64,000 bases of DNA. Origin: Mycteria americana (lineage: Eukaryota; Chordata; Aves; Ciconiiformes; Ciconiidae). Positions 47,441 through 61,471 of this stretch are shown one piece after another (the first letter of the stretch is position 1; each line of letters opens with the position of its first letter). A model generated the notes under the pieces. That model was given only the letters and a program-made list of their open reading frames with translations. It had not been told where the DNA came from and did no database searches. The stretch covers positions 1,255,560 to 1,319,559 of the forward strand of contig NC_134390.1 in assembly GCF_035582795.1 (NCBI RefSeq). Direction: 5' to 3'. The position numbers were made by a program, and so were the translations under genes.

Positions 47441-48121
47441 GGGGATGTGTGGCCAGAGCAGGCGGGTGGCTTGAGAAACCCATCCCCTGTGGCTGCAGGG
47501 GTGCTGTGGGGGTCTGCCTGGGCTGGGGGGGTCCTTGTCCCCAGCCAGGACCTGTGCCAGGGAGGCCAGAGGACGAGGGACCAGGTGTCCTCCGTGGGTG
47601 CCATGGAACAGTGCAGGAGCTGGGTGCTGGGAGCCTGGGATCCTTCGGGTCCTTTGGGAACAAGGGACTCCCTGGGGACACGGTCCCCCGCTTTGCTCAG
47701 GGGCCGTAGGATGGGGAGGGGACGAGACTGAAAATCACCTCCCTAGGGGAGCTGGGAGGAGAGAGGCGCCCATTCCCCAGCAGGGAAGGTCGAGGCTCTG
47801 GAGATCTGCATCATCTGCCCCGGAGCGTGCCCAGCCGTGGTGCGGCTCTGGGTGCCTTATCTCGGCCCGTTCGCTCCGGCACCTCCGTCCCTGTCCCCCT
47901 CCAGTCCCTGGGCACAGCGGGTGCCCATTGGCACCCAGGGCAATGCCCGGCCGGGGGCAGATCAGACCTGGGATGCCCAGAGCCCGTCCTGCCCCTGCCT
48001 GCGGAGCACCCGATGGTCCCACCCCACGGGCAGGAGGTGGAGGAGACCTCCCCCCCCCCCCCGATCTTCACGGCTCTCCTGTCCCTTCAGGGAGACCCCC
48101 GGCCCGCCCGGCGCTGCGGCC
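47441..48121 (+). promoter_or_regulatory. TESPA1 5' flank and 5' UTR acceptor
   Basis: Acceptor CTGTCCCTTCAG ends at 48090, 31 bp before the TESPA1 start codon, so at least one untranslated exon lies upstream, probably within this flank or beyond the 42-bp array. No TATA box or clear start site seen. Confidence 0.4.
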
Positions 48122-51100
48122 ATGGAGGGCGCGTCGGTGCTCAGCCCCTCCTCATGGGAGAAGCGGCGTGCGTGGGCCAGGCAGAGCCGGTGCTGGCGGA
48201 CCACCGTGGTGGAGGAGGAGGCGGCCGCAGCCATGCAGGACGTCCCCGAGCTGCAGCCGCCCCACCTGGATGACGTCTTCCTCGAAGGTTGGGGGGACCT
48301 CGAGGTGCACACGGGACGGGGGTCCCCATGTGCTGGGTCATCTCACGGGTGTTTCTGTGTCCCCCCCCCCCCCCACCTAGGAAGCCCCTCCAGCAAGATA
48401 GAGACCTGGCTTCAGGAGTGCGGGTGAGCTGGGGGGCAGGCGGGGGGCAGCTCCACGGGTGCCTCTGCCCTGATGCCATTCCCACGGGGATTTCGGCGTC
48501 ACTGTGGGGGTGGCGAGGGTGGTGGGACGGCGAGGGTGGTGGGACGATGCTCACGCTTGGCCCTTCCTGGAAGTCACACCCGAGCCAGGTGCACGGGTGC
48601 TGGCAGGACGGCGGCGTGTCCCCCCTGCTCGTCCCCGCGCAGGAAGCGCGGGTGGCCCCCGGCCACAGCTCTGCCACGCGCCGGGGTCACCGGCACCGGG
48701 TGCCGGTTCCACACCCGGCATCACACAGGTCCCTCCGGGAAACCCCCGGCTGGGCTGGGAGAAAAACCTCAGCACCGTGCTGGGGGGGTCTCTAAGCTCT
48801 CCCGGGGGTCTGGGGTCCCCGGGATCGGGGGTCTGCCGAGGGGACCCTCCTCCCGAGCATCCCACCATGGCGCATCCATGCAAGCCCAGCCGCTGTCTCC
48901 TTGCTCTCACCCTGCGCCCCATCGTCTGCGTCCCTGTCCCCGCCGCCCGTCCCGTCCCGCTCAGGTCTCCCGTTCCCCCTCCAGCCCCCCGGGATGGGGA
49001 CGGGGGGGGCTGTAACTGGGGTTTCGCTCCGGTGCAGGTCATCGGTGGAGGTCCTGCCGGAGGAGCTGGGCTTGCCGGGCCCCTTCGGTACGTCGGGTTT
49101 GCCCCCACGGTTCTCCTGGGCGGTGCTGAGGCTGGTGGTCCCTGCGTGTCCCCAAACCCACCCAACCCATGCCCGAGGCGCAGGGTGATGGGCAGGGAGG
49201 TCTTTGAGGACCTCGAGACCTGTCCCCAGCTCTGGGTGTCCCCGCGTCTCACAAGGCTTTGCTCTCTCGCAGCGTGTGGGAGCAACGGGACCAGCTTCGA
49301 GGATGACCTGACCCTGGGAGCTGAAGGTACCGACCACCCTCGGGCACGCCGGGGTGTCCCCTCCTGCGGTGTCACTGTCGCCCCACGGGCAGAGCTGCCT
49401 CGGCAGAGTCAGGGGAGCTGGGGACAGGGCGGGAGCAGACCCCCGGGGAGAGCCACCATCAGTAGCTTTTCCTCCAGGAGGGTTTCGTCGGGGCTGGGCT
49501 GTCCCCAAGCTCCGTGTCCCCTCGGGCTCCGGGCTGTGGCTGCCTGGAAGGACATCTCCCAGGGTGGCGAGTGTGGGACGTGTCCCCAGAACACCCCACC
49601 TCACTCCCTGCCGCCTCTCTGCTCCCTCTTCCCAGCTCTTCTGCTACCAGGGAGCGACAAGGCCATGGGCAGGTGAGGTTTCGGGTCCCGGGGGGGGGGT
49701 CGGTGGAGGGGCTGGGGGCACCCCAGCATCCCGCTGCACCCCGTGCGTCCCGCTGGCGGCATCCCCTTCGCTCAGCCCCGTCCTCCTCCTCCCCGCCGCA
49801 GAGCTCTGCGGGACAAGCACCTCAACCTGGGGCACAGCATGGCATCCAGTGCCCTCTCCAGCCTCACCACCAAGACCAGCTCCAGGTAGGAGCTAGGGGG
49901 GGGGTCTCCGGGGGGGGGGGGACGACGTTGGGTCACCCCCTCGCCAGACCAGTCCCCGTAGGGCTGAGCCGGGGCTGCCCCCCCACCCCGCAGCATCTCC
50001 GAGGTCCTGGAGTGGTGGCAGCCGGACGCCGAGGAGATCCTCTACAACCTGGGCTTCGTGCAGAGCGAGCCGGGGGCCGTGGCCCGCATCCCCGCGCGCT
50101 TCTTCTCGGCTCCTTCCTGCGCCAAGGGCATCGACTTCCAGCTCTTCCTCAAGGCCCAAGTGCGGCGCATGGAGATGGAGGACCCCTGCCTGATGCTGGC
50201 CAGTGAGTGACACCTGCGTCCCCAAGCCCCCCGCCCAGGGAGACACCGACGTGTGGGGTGGCATCCACCGTGCTGGCTGAGCTCTGCTCCTTTGGGGTGG
50301 TGGGAAAGACGCTCCCCTGCCTCGGTTTCCCCGTGCATGAGCTGGGGGAACGCACCCAGCCCACCCTGTCCCTGCTGCAGCCTCCTGCCCCATCTCCCAG
50401 CCCCACCGAGCATCCCTCACCCCACAGCCCTCCTGACCCCCCCCCCATCTCCTCCTGGCCCCCCAGGTCGCTTCCAGCAGGTCCAGGCTCTGGCTGCCAC
50501 GGCCGACGCTTTCTTCTGCCTCTACTCCTACGTCTCGCGGACCCCCGTGCAGCGCATCTCCCCCTCCCGCCTCTCCTGGGCTTGTCCCGACGTCCCCGAC
50601 ATCCGCGTCACCCCCAGCCAGCCCTGCACCCTCTCGCCCGTGGACCGCCTGAAGAAGGCTGTGTCCACCATGTGCCTCTACACGTCCCCGTGGGACGGGG
50701 ACAGCCGGCGGGGGCCTGGCCGGGTGCCCACCACCGTGCCCGCCAGCCAGCCCAGCGCCCTGGGGAAGGTGGTGCAGGAGGTGCTGGAGCGAGCACGGGA
50801 GGAACGGTTTCGGTTCGACCCGGCCGATGTCCTCGAGGGCTGGGGAAGGGACGGGGACACAGGGATGGTGCGGCAGCAGCGGGGAGCGGAGGGGGGTCCC
50901 CCAGCTGTCCCCCCGCCGTCGCCGCGCCTGGTGCAGGGTGTCCCTGCGTGTCCCCGTCACGGTGGGGCAGGTGCCCCGGTGTGCCGCGGAGGGGAGCGGG
51001 AGCCGTCCCCCAGGCCAGCCCCAGAGGGGACGCCGGCGGCCGCTGCAAGGGGATGCCTGGAGCGGTCCTGTCCCCGTGGCCGAGGCAGCAGTGACAGCCC

Positions 51101-52330
51101 TGCAGGGGTGGCTCAGGGGGCTGGGGATGCTCCGTGCCCAGCGGGAAGGGGACGGGTCAGCACGGAGGAGCGTCAGCCAGATGCTGCTGCTGCGAACGTC
51201 ACCTTGTCCCCGACGCCGGGTCCCCTGGGCCCCCACGCCGGCCAGGTGTGGGTCACCCCTGAGCACCCAGAGGGGCTGGGATCTGAGGGGGACTCCGGCT
51301 TCGGCTCTGGCTCCTGGGGGACCTCCCCAAGGAAGAAGGCGAGGTCCCGCGGGTGCCGCCCGGGTGACGCCGCTGGGGCACGTTCCCCTGGCTCAGACGT
51401 GCCGAGAGCTGGGGGCCACCGGGCTCGGCGGAGCAGGGGCCGGTGCCGGGGGGGCCCCCCGAGGGATGCCGGGCGGCAGCAGGGCGATGCGCCAGGGCTG
51501 CAGCGTCCCGGGAAGGGCCCCTTGCCCCACCGTCCCGGCTGGCAGGAGCCGGTGGACTCCTTCGAGATGGAGGAGGTGAGGGGCGACGCCCGGGTGATGG
51601 GCGCAGAGGGGTGGGGGGCAGGATGGGGCTGGGAGCGGGGGGCCAGCAGCGCGGGGGGGGTTCCTTCGGCCGGTGGGTGATGCCGGGTGAGCCGGCGCGG
51701 GGCGGGAAGGAGCTGGAGCGGGAAATGTCCCCGGAGCGTTCTCAGGCTTTTAAGGTTTGAATGATTTAGAGCTTCGGATGGAGCCTCTTGCAGGGGGGAG
51801 CTGGGGCCACGGGCACGACGGGCGGCCCCCGCACACGCACGCAGGCCTGCGCGGGCCCGCACGTATGCGCAAGCATCCTTGCACGCACGCGGGGATGCCC
51901 GGGTGCGCGCGGACGCACCTTTGCGCGCGCACGGGCGTGCACTGACGCGCTCGCCCGGTGCAGCTCCTCACCCAGCCCCGCTGCGTCCCGCCCGCAGGTG
52001 CTGAGCGCCAGCGAGGATGATGATGATGATGATGATGACGATGGTGATGCCCGTGAGGAAGCCGGCCGCTCCCTCCATCCCTCCGTCGGGGTCCGGAGAA
52101 GTAAGTCGTAGGCTTTTCCCACCCTTCCGAGGGGCAGAGGGGCTGCCGTCCCAGTGGGTGCCGGGTGCCAGCGTGTGTCCCCGTGTGTCCCCGTGTGTCC
52201 CCGTGTCCCTGCTCCAGGCTTCATGCTGCACGCCAGCAGCGGGCAGTCTGACAGCAGCGGCTTCGTGGAGGAGCCGGTGCTCAGCCAGCTGCCGGCCGCC
52301 TGCCTCCACGGCACCGACCAGACGGGCTGA
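48122..52330 (+). CDS. TESPA1: TESPA1, thymocyte-expressed positive-selection-associated protein (IP3-receptor binding)
   Basis: Ten coding exons encode 655 aa: 48122-48287, 48381-48423, 49038-49087, 49273-49326, 49636-49672, 49802-49885, 49994-50202, 50467-51575, 51998-52100, 52218-52330. All are GT-AG with matching phases. The start MEGASVLSPSSWEKRRAWAR matches mammalian TESPA1. GTSFEDDLTLGAE, RIPARFF (FF at 181-182, the pair that contacts IP3 receptors in this family), GIDFQLFLKAQ and MEMEDPCLMLASRF mark the KRAP/TESPA1 IP3R-binding domain. The protein links IP3 receptors to T-cell-receptor calcium signalling at the ER. Exon 8 is 1,109 bp; after about residue 340 it is Gly/Pro/Arg-rich and poorly conserved, making the protein longer than human (about 521 aa). 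Exon 9 encodes nine consecutive Asp from a GAT microsatellite. The C-terminus SGQSDSSGFVEEP resembles the ITPRID paralogues. Confidence 0.95.
51810..51960. repeat. Alternating purine-pyrimidine tract, TESPA1 intron 8
   Basis: GCACGCACGCAGG, CGTATGCGCAAG and GCGCGCGGACGCACC-type sequence within the 422-bp intron. Z-DNA-prone by composition. Confidence 0.5.
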
Positions 52331-56200: not shown

Positions 56201-56737
56201 GGAAAGGTCTGCGGCTTGGGGGGCTGGCAGTCGAGGAGCATATAGGGGCTGGGGAGTGAGCAGGGGGCTACGGAGTCAGCTTGGAGATTATGGGGCGTGT
56301 GGGAGGGCATGGGAGGCTTGTGGGGGGAGCAGGAGTGTACTGGGGGACTGTGGAGCGTACTGGGGGGGTACGGAGTGCACCGGGACGACGCGGAGCGGCA
56401 GCCATGGAGCGACGCGAGCTGTTGGGGCTTCGAGGACTCAGGGATTGCTTGGCACACGGGGGGCCGGGAGCCCTGGCAACGGGGCCGGGGCTGGTTTGGG
56501 TGCTCCTGGGGCTGGCGGCGGGGCCGGCCGTGCTGCCCGAAGGGGCTGCAGGGCTAATGCGGGCTAACCCTGCCCCTGGCCGGGCGCCCGGGCACGGGCA
56601 TCTCCCCACCCCTGGAAAAATCCCGTGCATCCCCGAGCCCTCCCAGCCCTGCCCCGCTGGTGCCTGCTGCCTTCGTAAGGGACAGACCCCAGCCCTGGCT
56701 CATCCCGTTCGGCCGCTGGCCGAAATCCTCTGGGGTG

Positions 56738-57785
56738 ATGAAGCTCTGCGTCCTCCTGCTGCCGGCCGGGCTCGCCTGGTTGGGCAGGTCCCCAGCGGGA
56801 CGTGGGGTGGCACTGGGGTGGTCCCCGGTGGGGTGCAGGGAGGGGGTCAGGCCATCCAGGCGCGTGCGTCAAGGGGCCGGGTGCAGAGCGGGGGGTGTCC
56901 TGTGCGTGTGATGGGGGGTCCCGCCACCCCGCCGATGCCGTCTCTCTTCCTCCCGCAGTTCCTCTCGATGAGACATCTTCCGCAAGCGCTGCTGCGTTCG
57001 GGGTCCTGCGTGGGAATCCCGATCGCCCGGGGGGTCTGGTGGCCAGGCTGCGAGGCAGAGGTTTGGGAACCCCCCCAAAGACCTCGTGTCCTCCAGGGAA
57101 CGGCAAATCTTTGGGTGTTTTTCTCTTGTTCTGAAGGCGGGGTTGTTCCCGGCGGGTGAGGATGCTCCTGCATCCCTCTCTTCCCTCCGAGGCAGGCGGG
57201 GAAGTGCGTGGGTCGGACCCACGTGGCACAGACCGGGGCTGAGCGGCCCCGGCTCCCTGCAAACCCCGCAGCAAGAGGCAGCTCCCTCGGGGCCGGTGGC
57301 CTTGGCCCGGGTGTCGGCGCAAGGGTCGAGACCTGCCGGGCGTCAGGGCCACCGGTTTCGGTGGGTGGGTGGGTGGGAGGTACCGTGGAGGGGACGAGGA
57401 GCACCCTGTTAGCGGCACATCAGGGTGCTCGGGTAACCCCGTTTCTTCCCACAGACGCTGAGGCCGTCGAGGGGGCTGACGGAGGAGTGCTGGCCCTGCT
57501 CGGTGACCTGCTGGACGGGCCCTTGAAGGCTCTGAGTTCCAACTTCATCGGGTGAGCAGGGAAGGGGGAGCAATGGGCGACGGGAGGGCTCTGCCGCGGT
57601 CAGCGGGGACAGCAATGCTGCCACTCCGAGAGGTGTCCCCAGCTCCTTCCCACCCCGCTGCGCTGGGTGCCGGTGGGGGACGTAGTGGGGAGGGTGCTGG
57701 GGGGCTGGCTGGGTGCTCCCACGAGGGTGGGATGGTGGGACGGGGCCAGGTCTCACCTCTTTGGTGTTTTCTCTCTTCCAGGTGA
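56738..57785 (+). CDS. Candidate small secreted-protein gene (unrecognised family)
   Basis: ATG at 56738 opens MKLCVLLLPAGLAWLG, a typical signal peptide. A second exon (56959-57060, acceptor CCTCCCGCAG, donor GCAGAG|GTTTGG) is 102 bp and phase 1 at both ends. It reads PLDETSSASAAAFG, then a Gly/Arg stretch ending RLRGR. A third exon (57455-57551, acceptor TTCCCACAG, donor ATCGG|GTGAGC) also enters in phase 1 and reads AEAVEGADGG, VLALLGDLLDGPLKALSS and NFIG. Its stop arises at the exon 3/4 junction and is the same spliced (57783-57785) or unspliced (57553-57555). The product would be about 90 aa with a mature acidic peptide and a hydrophobic helix-like tail. The exon 1 donor is the weak point: the phase-1 choice is after 56801, while the better-looking site after 56787 gives the wrong phase. 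I do not recognise the family. Size and layout recall lacritin and dermcidin, near which this locus lies in mammals; homology is unproven. Confidence 0.4.
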
Positions 57786-57989
57786 CCAGCGAGCAGCCAG
57801 GACAGTAAAGTCCCTTCCTTCCTGGGGGAGGCTGGGGACACGGGGTGTCCTGTCGCTGGCAGGGATGCAGCTCCAGGGCTGGGGCTGGGGTGGGGGGACG
57901 CTCTCCTGGGGACACCGGGAGCCCCCACCACCTCCCATGGCTGCCCAGGGCTGTGCCCAGCTCCTTCTCTGCTCCTGCCCTGAGCACTG

Positions 57990-59489: not shown

Positions 59490-61471
59490 ATGACGCTCCG
59501 GGGTTTCCTGGTGCTCTGGGTGCGAGTGGCACTCGAGGTGACGCTGGGTGGCTGGGGGGTGCTTGGGGACAGGCTGGCCACCCCTGCCACATCCAGCATC
59601 TCCCGTCCTCCTCGGGGCTAACGGCTTTCACTCCCTTCCCTTCGCTCCTCGCTGAGGGGGGGGTCACCAGCCCTGGGAGGGGGGTCCTCCCACCCAGGGT
59701 CCCCTTGTCCCGGGCTGCCGACCACCCCGGCCACGGCCCCGGATCCAAAATGCAGCTGTGCCCGCCCCTGCCCACGCACGGAGGTCCCGCGGGGGCCGGG
59801 GCGTGGGATTTGCAGCTCTGACACCCCCCGCTCTGCCAAAAACCCGCCTGGGGGGGGAGGTGTGTGTCGGGGGGGGGGGGGGGGCTGCCTGGTTGCCACG
59901 GCAATGAGGATGATGCTGGCAGCTCCGTGGGAAGCGGGTGATCTTCCTCCCGGCGATGGAGGAGGGAGAAGCTCCGCATCTTTTCGGAGTCGTGGGATGC
60001 TCCGGAGAGACACAGCTCTGGCTGGGACGAGCCTGGAGCGATCTCGAGAAGGGCTCTGTGGGGCGCGGCTTTTCGTTGTACCCCCAAACCCGTGTGCAAG
60101 CGGGGCCCACTGCTGAACCAGCGCTTACTGGTTTCCAGCTTGGGAGACCAGCGAGAAGAGTCTCATGGTTTCGCTTCTCCTTGGAGGATGGACGAAACCC
60201 GGTTGCCCATGACTGGCTCATCTCGTCTCTTCACCCGCGGTGGGGTACCCTAAATGAATTATTTTTTTCCCCCCAATAAACCCCTCCTAGGAATAAACCC
60301 AGCACCTCCTGGAGCAGGCAAATGCCTCGTCCCCGTGCGAAGAGCTGCCTCCTCCTCCTCCCCTCGGCTGGCAGCTCTTCCTCCAGCTGGGCGCAGGGGT
60401 GCGTGCCGCTGCGCACATCTCACCACCGCCTCCCTCCTGGCATTTCTGGGCGGCTTTTTGAGGAAAGAAAGCATTTTTTTTTGGCACGGTTTCGCAGGGA
60501 AAGGTGCGTCGGGCAAGCGCACAGGAGCTCTCCGATGGCAAAGTCCACCTCTGAGCTGGCCAAGGGAAGCGTTGGGGGGTGGATAAACGTATGCAGTGAC
60601 AACTGCAGCGGCCACCTCCGCCTTCCCACCGCAGGTGAGATAAATCTCATCTTAAAAAAACAGCTCTTTTTTTTTTTTTTTTCTTTTTTTTTTTTAATTC
60701 TTTTTCCCAGGAAAAGACTCCTGACGGGGACGCCGAGAGCTGGGACGCGGCGGTGCTGCCGCTCTCTGCAGAGTGGGATGTCCCCGGGGAGACGGCACAA
60801 GTTACTCCCGACAGCTCCTCGCCCCGTAATTGTTCCCCGAGGTGGGTTCGTGCGTTATTAGCGATGGATTTGCTGAGGATGGAGTGGAGCTTAAATTAGA
60901 CTCCGGCTGACAGAGCCCTCCTGGGTTTGTGCCGGCGTCAAAGGCTCGCTCGTGTTTGCCTCTCGCACAAAACGAGGTGCGGCGTTGTCCCTAAACCTTG
61001 AGAATTGACCTTAAAAAGGGACCCGGTTTTGGCTGAGCTGAAAATCTCTGAGTGAGGATGCTCGGGGCAGCGGGGTCCCGGCTGGATGTCACCGCCTGGG
61101 AGCTGGTGACCCCAAAAGACGCTGGGGTCCCCAGTAACTGGAGCGGGGGGTACTGCGGCTGGGGAGCAACCTCCATCCAACAGCTCTGAGGCTTCAGGGC
61201 ATCTTTTTTTCCCAGATCTGAAGCATCCATAGGCGGGAGATGGGCATGGACGTGGTCCCAGCTCGCAGAGGGTCTTTGGCTCGCCGTCCTTTCGAAGAGC
61301 GGGCAGATGGCATCAGGAGACCCTGCGGTCTCCCAGGACCTCGCCTCTCGCTCCGATCCCCTCAGGAGCACCCGTGCGGGCGGTTTGAGTTTGGAGCTCA
61401 GAGCCGTGCCGCTCCTGGAGCCGACCCAGCCGGCTGGGAGACGTCACCGCGATTATTTCAGTTAACTCAAT
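59490..61471 (+). other. Orphan exon-like segments, possibly one unrecognised gene
   Basis: Three segments are compatible in phase. 59490-59537 reads MTLRGFLVLWVRVALE, signal-peptide-like, then GAG|GTGACG. 60711-60841 follows a pyrimidine tract of more than 40 bases ending TTTTTCCCAG, stays open for 43 codons (EKTPDGDAESWDAAVLPL onwards) and ends CCGAG|GTGGGT. 61216-61471 follows TTTTTTTCCCAG and is open to a stop. No family is recognised and the middle and last frames could be chance. Two AATAAA hexamers (60275-60280 and 60292-60297) lie inside the first putative intron, which counts against a single gene. Confidence 0.15.

Follow-up and report, generated by a model that had tools for sequence, protein, structure and literature searches.

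Does a bird carry a small secreted-peptide gene beside TESPA1, as mammals do? The LACRT/DCD/MUCL1/GLYCAM1 cluster is located at human 12q13, and to our knowledge the tear, sweat and milk peptides of the TESPA1 locus are regarded as mammalian inventions; we know of no outgroup. We analyzed a 64,000-nucleotide stretch of the Mycteria americana genome (the window), for which an earlier note had proposed an undescribed small secreted-peptide gene by TESPA1. The analysis is based on this one genome, on statistics and on published papers.

Gene order around the candidate

The neighboring genes were placed by local tblastn searches with human proteins as queries. NCKAP1L (6.1–15.7 kb) and PDE1B (19.2–32.4 kb) were found on the forward strand and PPP1R1A (40.85–35.9 kb) on the reverse strand. 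TESPA1, the upstream neighbor of the candidate, is present on the forward strand at 48091–52330, with first coding exon and stop approximate, and includes KRAP_IP3R_bind matches at 49,983–50,207 and 50,466–50,570. What we take to be its first exon (ca. 48.1 kb) and its C-terminus and stop (ca. 52.33 kb) were picked out in the translations. NEUROD4 follows on the forward strand 12 kb past the end of the window (extended coordinate 75,977) and was confirmed by Pfam (Neuro_bHLH, E 1.4e-48). The candidate starts 4.4 kb past the TESPA1 stop on the same strand, giving the order NCKAP1L (+), PDE1B (+), PPP1R1A (−), TESPA1 (+), candidate (+), NEUROD4 (+). It is thus placed beside TESPA1 within the interval between PPP1R1A and NEUROD4, a position that it shares with the mammalian cluster. 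When the candidate DNA was used as a query against the genome, the single match was the candidate itself, and it is not a repeat. The Rfam search of the window gave no match.

Two other features of the region were observed. A long tandem array of ca. 57-bp GC-rich units, whose reverse strand contains very long open frames, extends from 62.3–64.0 kb on to ca. 65.9 kb. Past NEUROD4, at 92.5–113.5 kb in extended coordinates, the reverse strand includes exons matching Somatomedin_B, XendoU (below the cut-off) and cNMP_binding. We take these exons to belong to ENDOU and RAPGEF3, which are several Mb away in human, and by these gene identities there is a synteny break past NEUROD4 relative to human.

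Exon 3 and the signal-like start codon

The strongest part of the candidate is exon 3 (57455–57551, forward strand), which is entered in phase 1, left in phase 2 and encodes (D/H)AEAVEGADGGVLALLGDLLDGPLKALSSNFIG. Its acceptor at 57455 belongs to the best 1.5% of AG sites (144 kb, both strands) and its donor at 57552 to the best 0.7% of GT sites, while its codon use is in the top 0.8% of stop-free windows. In the exon scan, acceptor–donor pairs 60–260 nt apart and enclosing a stop-free frame were collected from both strands of 144 kb (acceptor score at least 3.5, donor score at least −1) and ranked by a combined score of splice sites and codon usage. Exon 3 reached a combined score of 18.1 and was the 30th among the candidate exons. 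The scan was also extended leftward along the contig by 80 kb, to 224 kb in total, 5,200 of the added bases being N. Altogether 37 exons then scored at least 18, and all but one of them (36/37) were present in named genes, the remaining one being exon 3. Some of the 36 score high by construction because neighboring genes (the exons of NCKAP1L, PDE1B and PPP1R1A, and NEUROD4) supplied the 2,122 training codons of the coding model; named-gene exons outside the training set have no such built-in advantage. Naming was based on matches for NCKAP1L, PDE1B, PPP1R1A, TESPA1 and NEUROD4, and in part on Pfam for ENDOU and the cNMP-binding gene; three further genes of the scan are presumably GTSF1, HNRNPA1 and ITGA5.

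Upstream of exon 3, the ATG at 56738 encodes MKLCVLLLPAGLAWLG. Start codons were considered strongly signal-like when the hydropathy was at least 2.4, a basic residue (K or R) stood close to the start and no acidic residue came early, and this ATG is one of only seven in 224 kb on both strands. According to this hydropathy scan, the first coding exon encodes a putative signal peptide, in agreement with the earlier note. The first 15 codons of exon 1 have a codon score in the top 1.8% of stop-free windows. The putative exon extends either over 56738–56801, with a GT donor at 56802 that is equalled by 16% of GTs, or over 56738–56783, with a GC donor at 56784. Both forms end in phase 1 and neither donor is distinctive, in agreement with the uncertainty that had already been attached to this donor. 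The nearest GT donor (56788) is in phase 2 and would lead to a stop four codons into exon 2. As a whole, exon 1 is plausible.

Among the exons of the 224 kb that score at least 18, only exon 3 follows a strongly signal-like ATG at a distance of 1.5 kb or less. The pairing test is insensitive, since it fails the probable ENDOU start, a likely true secreted gene nearby. The signal-like ATG in question, at 98717 on the reverse strand, probably marks the true signal peptide of ENDOU, because the exons downstream of it match Somatomedin_B and, below the cut-off, XendoU. The odds for exon 3 are also flattering, because the cut-off of 18 was chosen to equal the score of the candidate itself and a reader had preselected the place.

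Selection of this kind inflates the merit of the place and is one of the points in favor of chance. On that reading, GC-rich, pyrimidine-rich intergenic DNA would contain acceptors, an open acidic frame and a signal-like ATG by coincidence. The GC-rich DNA here has many long open frames, five acceptors scoring at least 4 are present within ca. 0.9 kb, of which two play no part in the model of the earlier reader, and exon 2 resembles background. Furthermore, 40 dinucleotide-preserving shuffles of the 23-kb interval at 52.5–75.5 kb did produce an exon scoring at least 18, although there was only one in all 40, a rarity that speaks for exon 3. Against chance, however, no other exon outside the named genes reached 18 in the 224 kb, the next best scores being 15.2 (a Thr-rich stretch), 12.8 and 12.3, and exon 3 occurs together with a polyadenylation hexamer and with one of the few signal-like ATGs. 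Both the exon and its association with that ATG exceed chance, and we consider it unlikely that the candidate as a whole is a product of chance.

Two long frames overlapping the region were rejected as coding, the 299-codon forward frame through 56404–57156 and the 326-codon antisense frame over 56567–57544, both having codon scores at the background level. A second signal-like ATG was observed at 59490 on the forward strand (MTLRGFLVLWVRVALE), with a phase 0 donor after GAG. It is followed 1.2 kb downstream by an exon at 60711–60841 (forward strand) with the best acceptor of 56–62 kb (score 11.4), a donor scoring 4.9 and an open acidic phase-0 frame. This possible second small gene may be due to chance, as the codon score of the exon is negative.

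The middle and the end of the gene model

The earlier note had described two phase-1 exons with good acceptors. Both are open, and the acceptor of putative exon 2 (56959–57060, forward strand, phase 1 to phase 1) is even better than that of exon 3, the site at 56959 belonging to the best 0.4% of AG sites (144 kb, both strands), but only exon 3 has a coding signal. The codon score of exon 2 was reached by 53% of stop-free windows of the same length, and a search of all its frames found only background. Its donor is unremarkable, as 16% of GT sites match it. A short form ending at 57009 (alternative donor 57010) scores above the long form. Every compared model scored lower once exon 2 was added: the GC-donor models 5.3 with and 19.4 without it, the GT-donor models 1.2 and 15.2, respectively. 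Exon 2 is doubtful, not exceeding chance, and it may not be an exon at all. The splice alternatives are numerous, and the exact model of the earlier reader is absent from the 15 best listed for ATG 56738. The top-scoring middle exon for this ATG, 57192–57211, was dismissed as implausibly short (20 nt), and a reading of exons 1–3 in phase 0 throughout results in a truncated exon 3.

The end of the model is clearer. A putative 3'-terminal exon on the forward strand (57782–57825, 3' end approximate) completes a GGG codon and the TGA stop at 57783–57785, the stop thus falling in its first codon. The acceptor at 57782 scores 9.3, in the top 0.09% of AG sites (144 kb, both strands). The sequence and the splice sites bear out the earlier statement that the stop is unchanged with or without the last splice, as GG/G TGA is read either way. 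A possible polyadenylation signal, AGTAAA at 57804–57809 on the forward strand, begins 19 nt past the last stop base. It is the sole AGTAAA in 52.3–60.5 kb and one of the 13 AATAAA, ATTAAA or AGTAAA hexamers on the forward strand of 52.5–75.5 kb. Exon 3 and the 3' exon are well supported. No TATAAA was found on the forward strand of 52.3–60.5 kb.

Exon 3 might also be real while belonging to another transcript, for instance of TESPA1 (as an alternative 3' end) or of NEUROD4 (in its 5' part), with the signal-like ATG as a coincidence. Both genes share the strand of the candidate, and many other upstream starts can be spliced in phase 1 to exon 3 at comparable scores. However, the C-terminus and stop that we take to be those of TESPA1 are recognizable at ca. 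52.33 kb, and the last exon has a stop and an AGTAAA of its own, so we find such an origin highly improbable.

The product would have a length of ca. 48 to 88 residues, depending on splice choice. It had been expected to be acidic with a helix-like tail, and this agrees with exon 3, which has a net charge of −5 and a modelled helix, but not with long exon 2, which has a net charge of +2. AlphaFold2 run on the single exon 3 sequence produced one helix over residues 5–30 (mean pLDDT 82.6, pTM 0.37); short hydrophobic peptides often yield one-helix models. The hydrophobic moment of this helix exceeds that of 97% of shuffles of its own residues. Amphipathicity alone is still not evidence, because 20% of the stop-free local translations equal the moment. 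Pfam searches with an 82-residue model and with exon 3 gave no family up to E 10, and the best match in the PDB sequence search (E 0.065) was an unrelated enzyme, taken as chance. Nor were paralogs detected by protein query in the stork's own genome up to E 10: of the five places matched, three are exons of the candidate itself, and two (E 2.5 and 2.9) were taken as chance.

The uneven quality of the parts could also reflect a decayed or decaying gene, in which exon 3 and splice sites remain and the upstream exons and donors have eroded. The strong exon 3 and the good acceptors, set against the poor donors of exons 1 and 2 and the lack of coding signal in exon 2, point in that direction. Exon 3 and the signal exon are, however, both open and coding-like, and a fast-evolving gene is expected to look similar; we regard decay as quite unlikely.

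Exon 1, exon 3 and the 3' exon are best explained by the proposed undescribed small secreted-peptide gene by TESPA1, but exon 2 and the exon 1 donor remain unsupported. That the gene is real, with its middle uncertain, is more probable than not, and we put at about 0.58 the probability that the forward strand between TESPA1 and NEUROD4 carries a real protein-coding gene, present in a single copy and of the small secreted type. Such a gene may already have received an automatic annotation. Its three supported exons would be parts of one transcript: exon 1 would supply the signal peptide, at least one small middle exon would follow, exon 3 would supply a short acidic helical tail, and translation would stop at the last splice junction, ahead of a very short 3' exon. 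The product of ca. 50–90 residues would be secreted. By comparison with the mammalian products from the side of TESPA1, it could be an acidic peptide with an amphipathic helix, membrane-active or lubricating, that acts on the surface of an epithelium.

Comparison with the mammalian secreted-peptide cluster

The human genes of the region are oriented NCKAP1L (+), PDE1B (+), PPP1R1A (−), LACRT (−), DCD (−), MUCL1 (+), TESPA1 (−) and NEUROD4 (+). Human TESPA1 is thus opposite in direction to NEUROD4 (head to head), with its 3' end pointing towards MUCL1, DCD and LACRT. In the stork, TESPA1 is on the forward strand and NEUROD4 is downstream of its 3' end, both in the same direction. The strands of PPP1R1A, PDE1B, NCKAP1L and NEUROD4 equal the human ones, and TESPA1 is flipped. 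Because TESPA1 alone differs from the human strands, a local inversion is suggested, and the simplest account is that it took TESPA1 together with whatever lay 3' of it. If the candidate was inverted along with TESPA1, it stands where LACRT and DCD would.

The candidate is situated on the 3' side of TESPA1 in this genome. If the human strands are as given above, it shares this side with the mammalian cluster. The earlier note had placed it on the other side of TESPA1, which would then need correcting. The mammalian cluster is located between PPP1R1A and TESPA1, whereas the candidate is located between TESPA1 and NEUROD4. By the same human strands, DCD and LACRT would have the same direction relative to TESPA1 as the candidate. 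LACRT, DCD, MUCL1 and GLYCAM1 also resemble it in being adjacent to TESPA1 in the NCKAP1L–PDE1B–PPP1R1A–TESPA1–NEUROD4 neighborhood and in the signal-peptide first exon, and they may resemble it in the small acidic product and the helical tail. Their mature parts, however, have no sequence similarity to the candidate.

Published descriptions add the following. A human segment of 0.64 Mb includes NCKAP1L, PDE1B, PPP1R1A, LACRT, DCD, GTSF1, GLYCAM1, KIAA0748 (TESPA1) and MUCL1 (PMC2997777), and DCD, MUCL1 and lacritin are treated as one locus (PMC3688712). The dermcidin signal cleavage site is encoded entirely by exon 1 (PMC2361319), in contrast to the candidate, whose exon 1 is short and has an unsettled end. 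In the koala, MM1 and a LACRT/DCD-like gene are reported beside TESPA1 (PMC5054531). MM1 is a small secreted peptide of 98–99 residues, encoded ca. 8 kb from TESPA1 and, like the candidate, without a recognised homolog (PMC5054531). It differs from the candidate in being a marsupial milk protein seen in a proteome; the comparison of the two is one of descriptions. The word "upstream", used in that paper for the position of MM1 relative to TESPA1, may mean the 5' side (PMC5054531).

Pairwise comparisons were made with bovine GLYCAM1, human LACRT and human MUCL1. They gave no sign of homology to these cluster members, the mature part and exon 3 scoring no better than shuffles. For the mature part, 67% of the shuffles scored as high against GLYCAM1, 44% against LACRT and 50% against MUCL1. 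The signal region alone exceeded most of its shuffles, against GLYCAM1 (1.6% as high) and LACRT (4%) and not against MUCL1 (45%), a result to be expected of signal peptides in general. No description of a bird or reptile member of the cluster was found in the titles and opening abstracts searched, a literature in which subscription journals are mostly uncovered. The sequence comparisons do not establish kinship of the candidate to the mammalian cluster, though its product may act as the cluster peptides do.

The position and orientation of the candidate fit the hypothesis that a secreted-peptide gene already lay 3' of TESPA1 in an ancestor and was inverted along with it. In that case the cluster would predate mammals, and the gene of the bird line would be either orthologous to the ancestor of LACRT, DCD, GLYCAM1, MUCL1 and MM1 or a relic of that ancestor; the TESPA1 inversion would have carried it to the NEUROD4 side, and its sequence would have diverged beyond recognition. 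We consider this history doubtful. If true, a sauropsid gene at the 3' end of TESPA1 would date the locus and supply its ancestral state, and genes of this kind could be found by their place after sequence similarity has been lost. The inversion account further predicts that, in amniotes with the human orientation of TESPA1, such a gene would be present between PPP1R1A and TESPA1.
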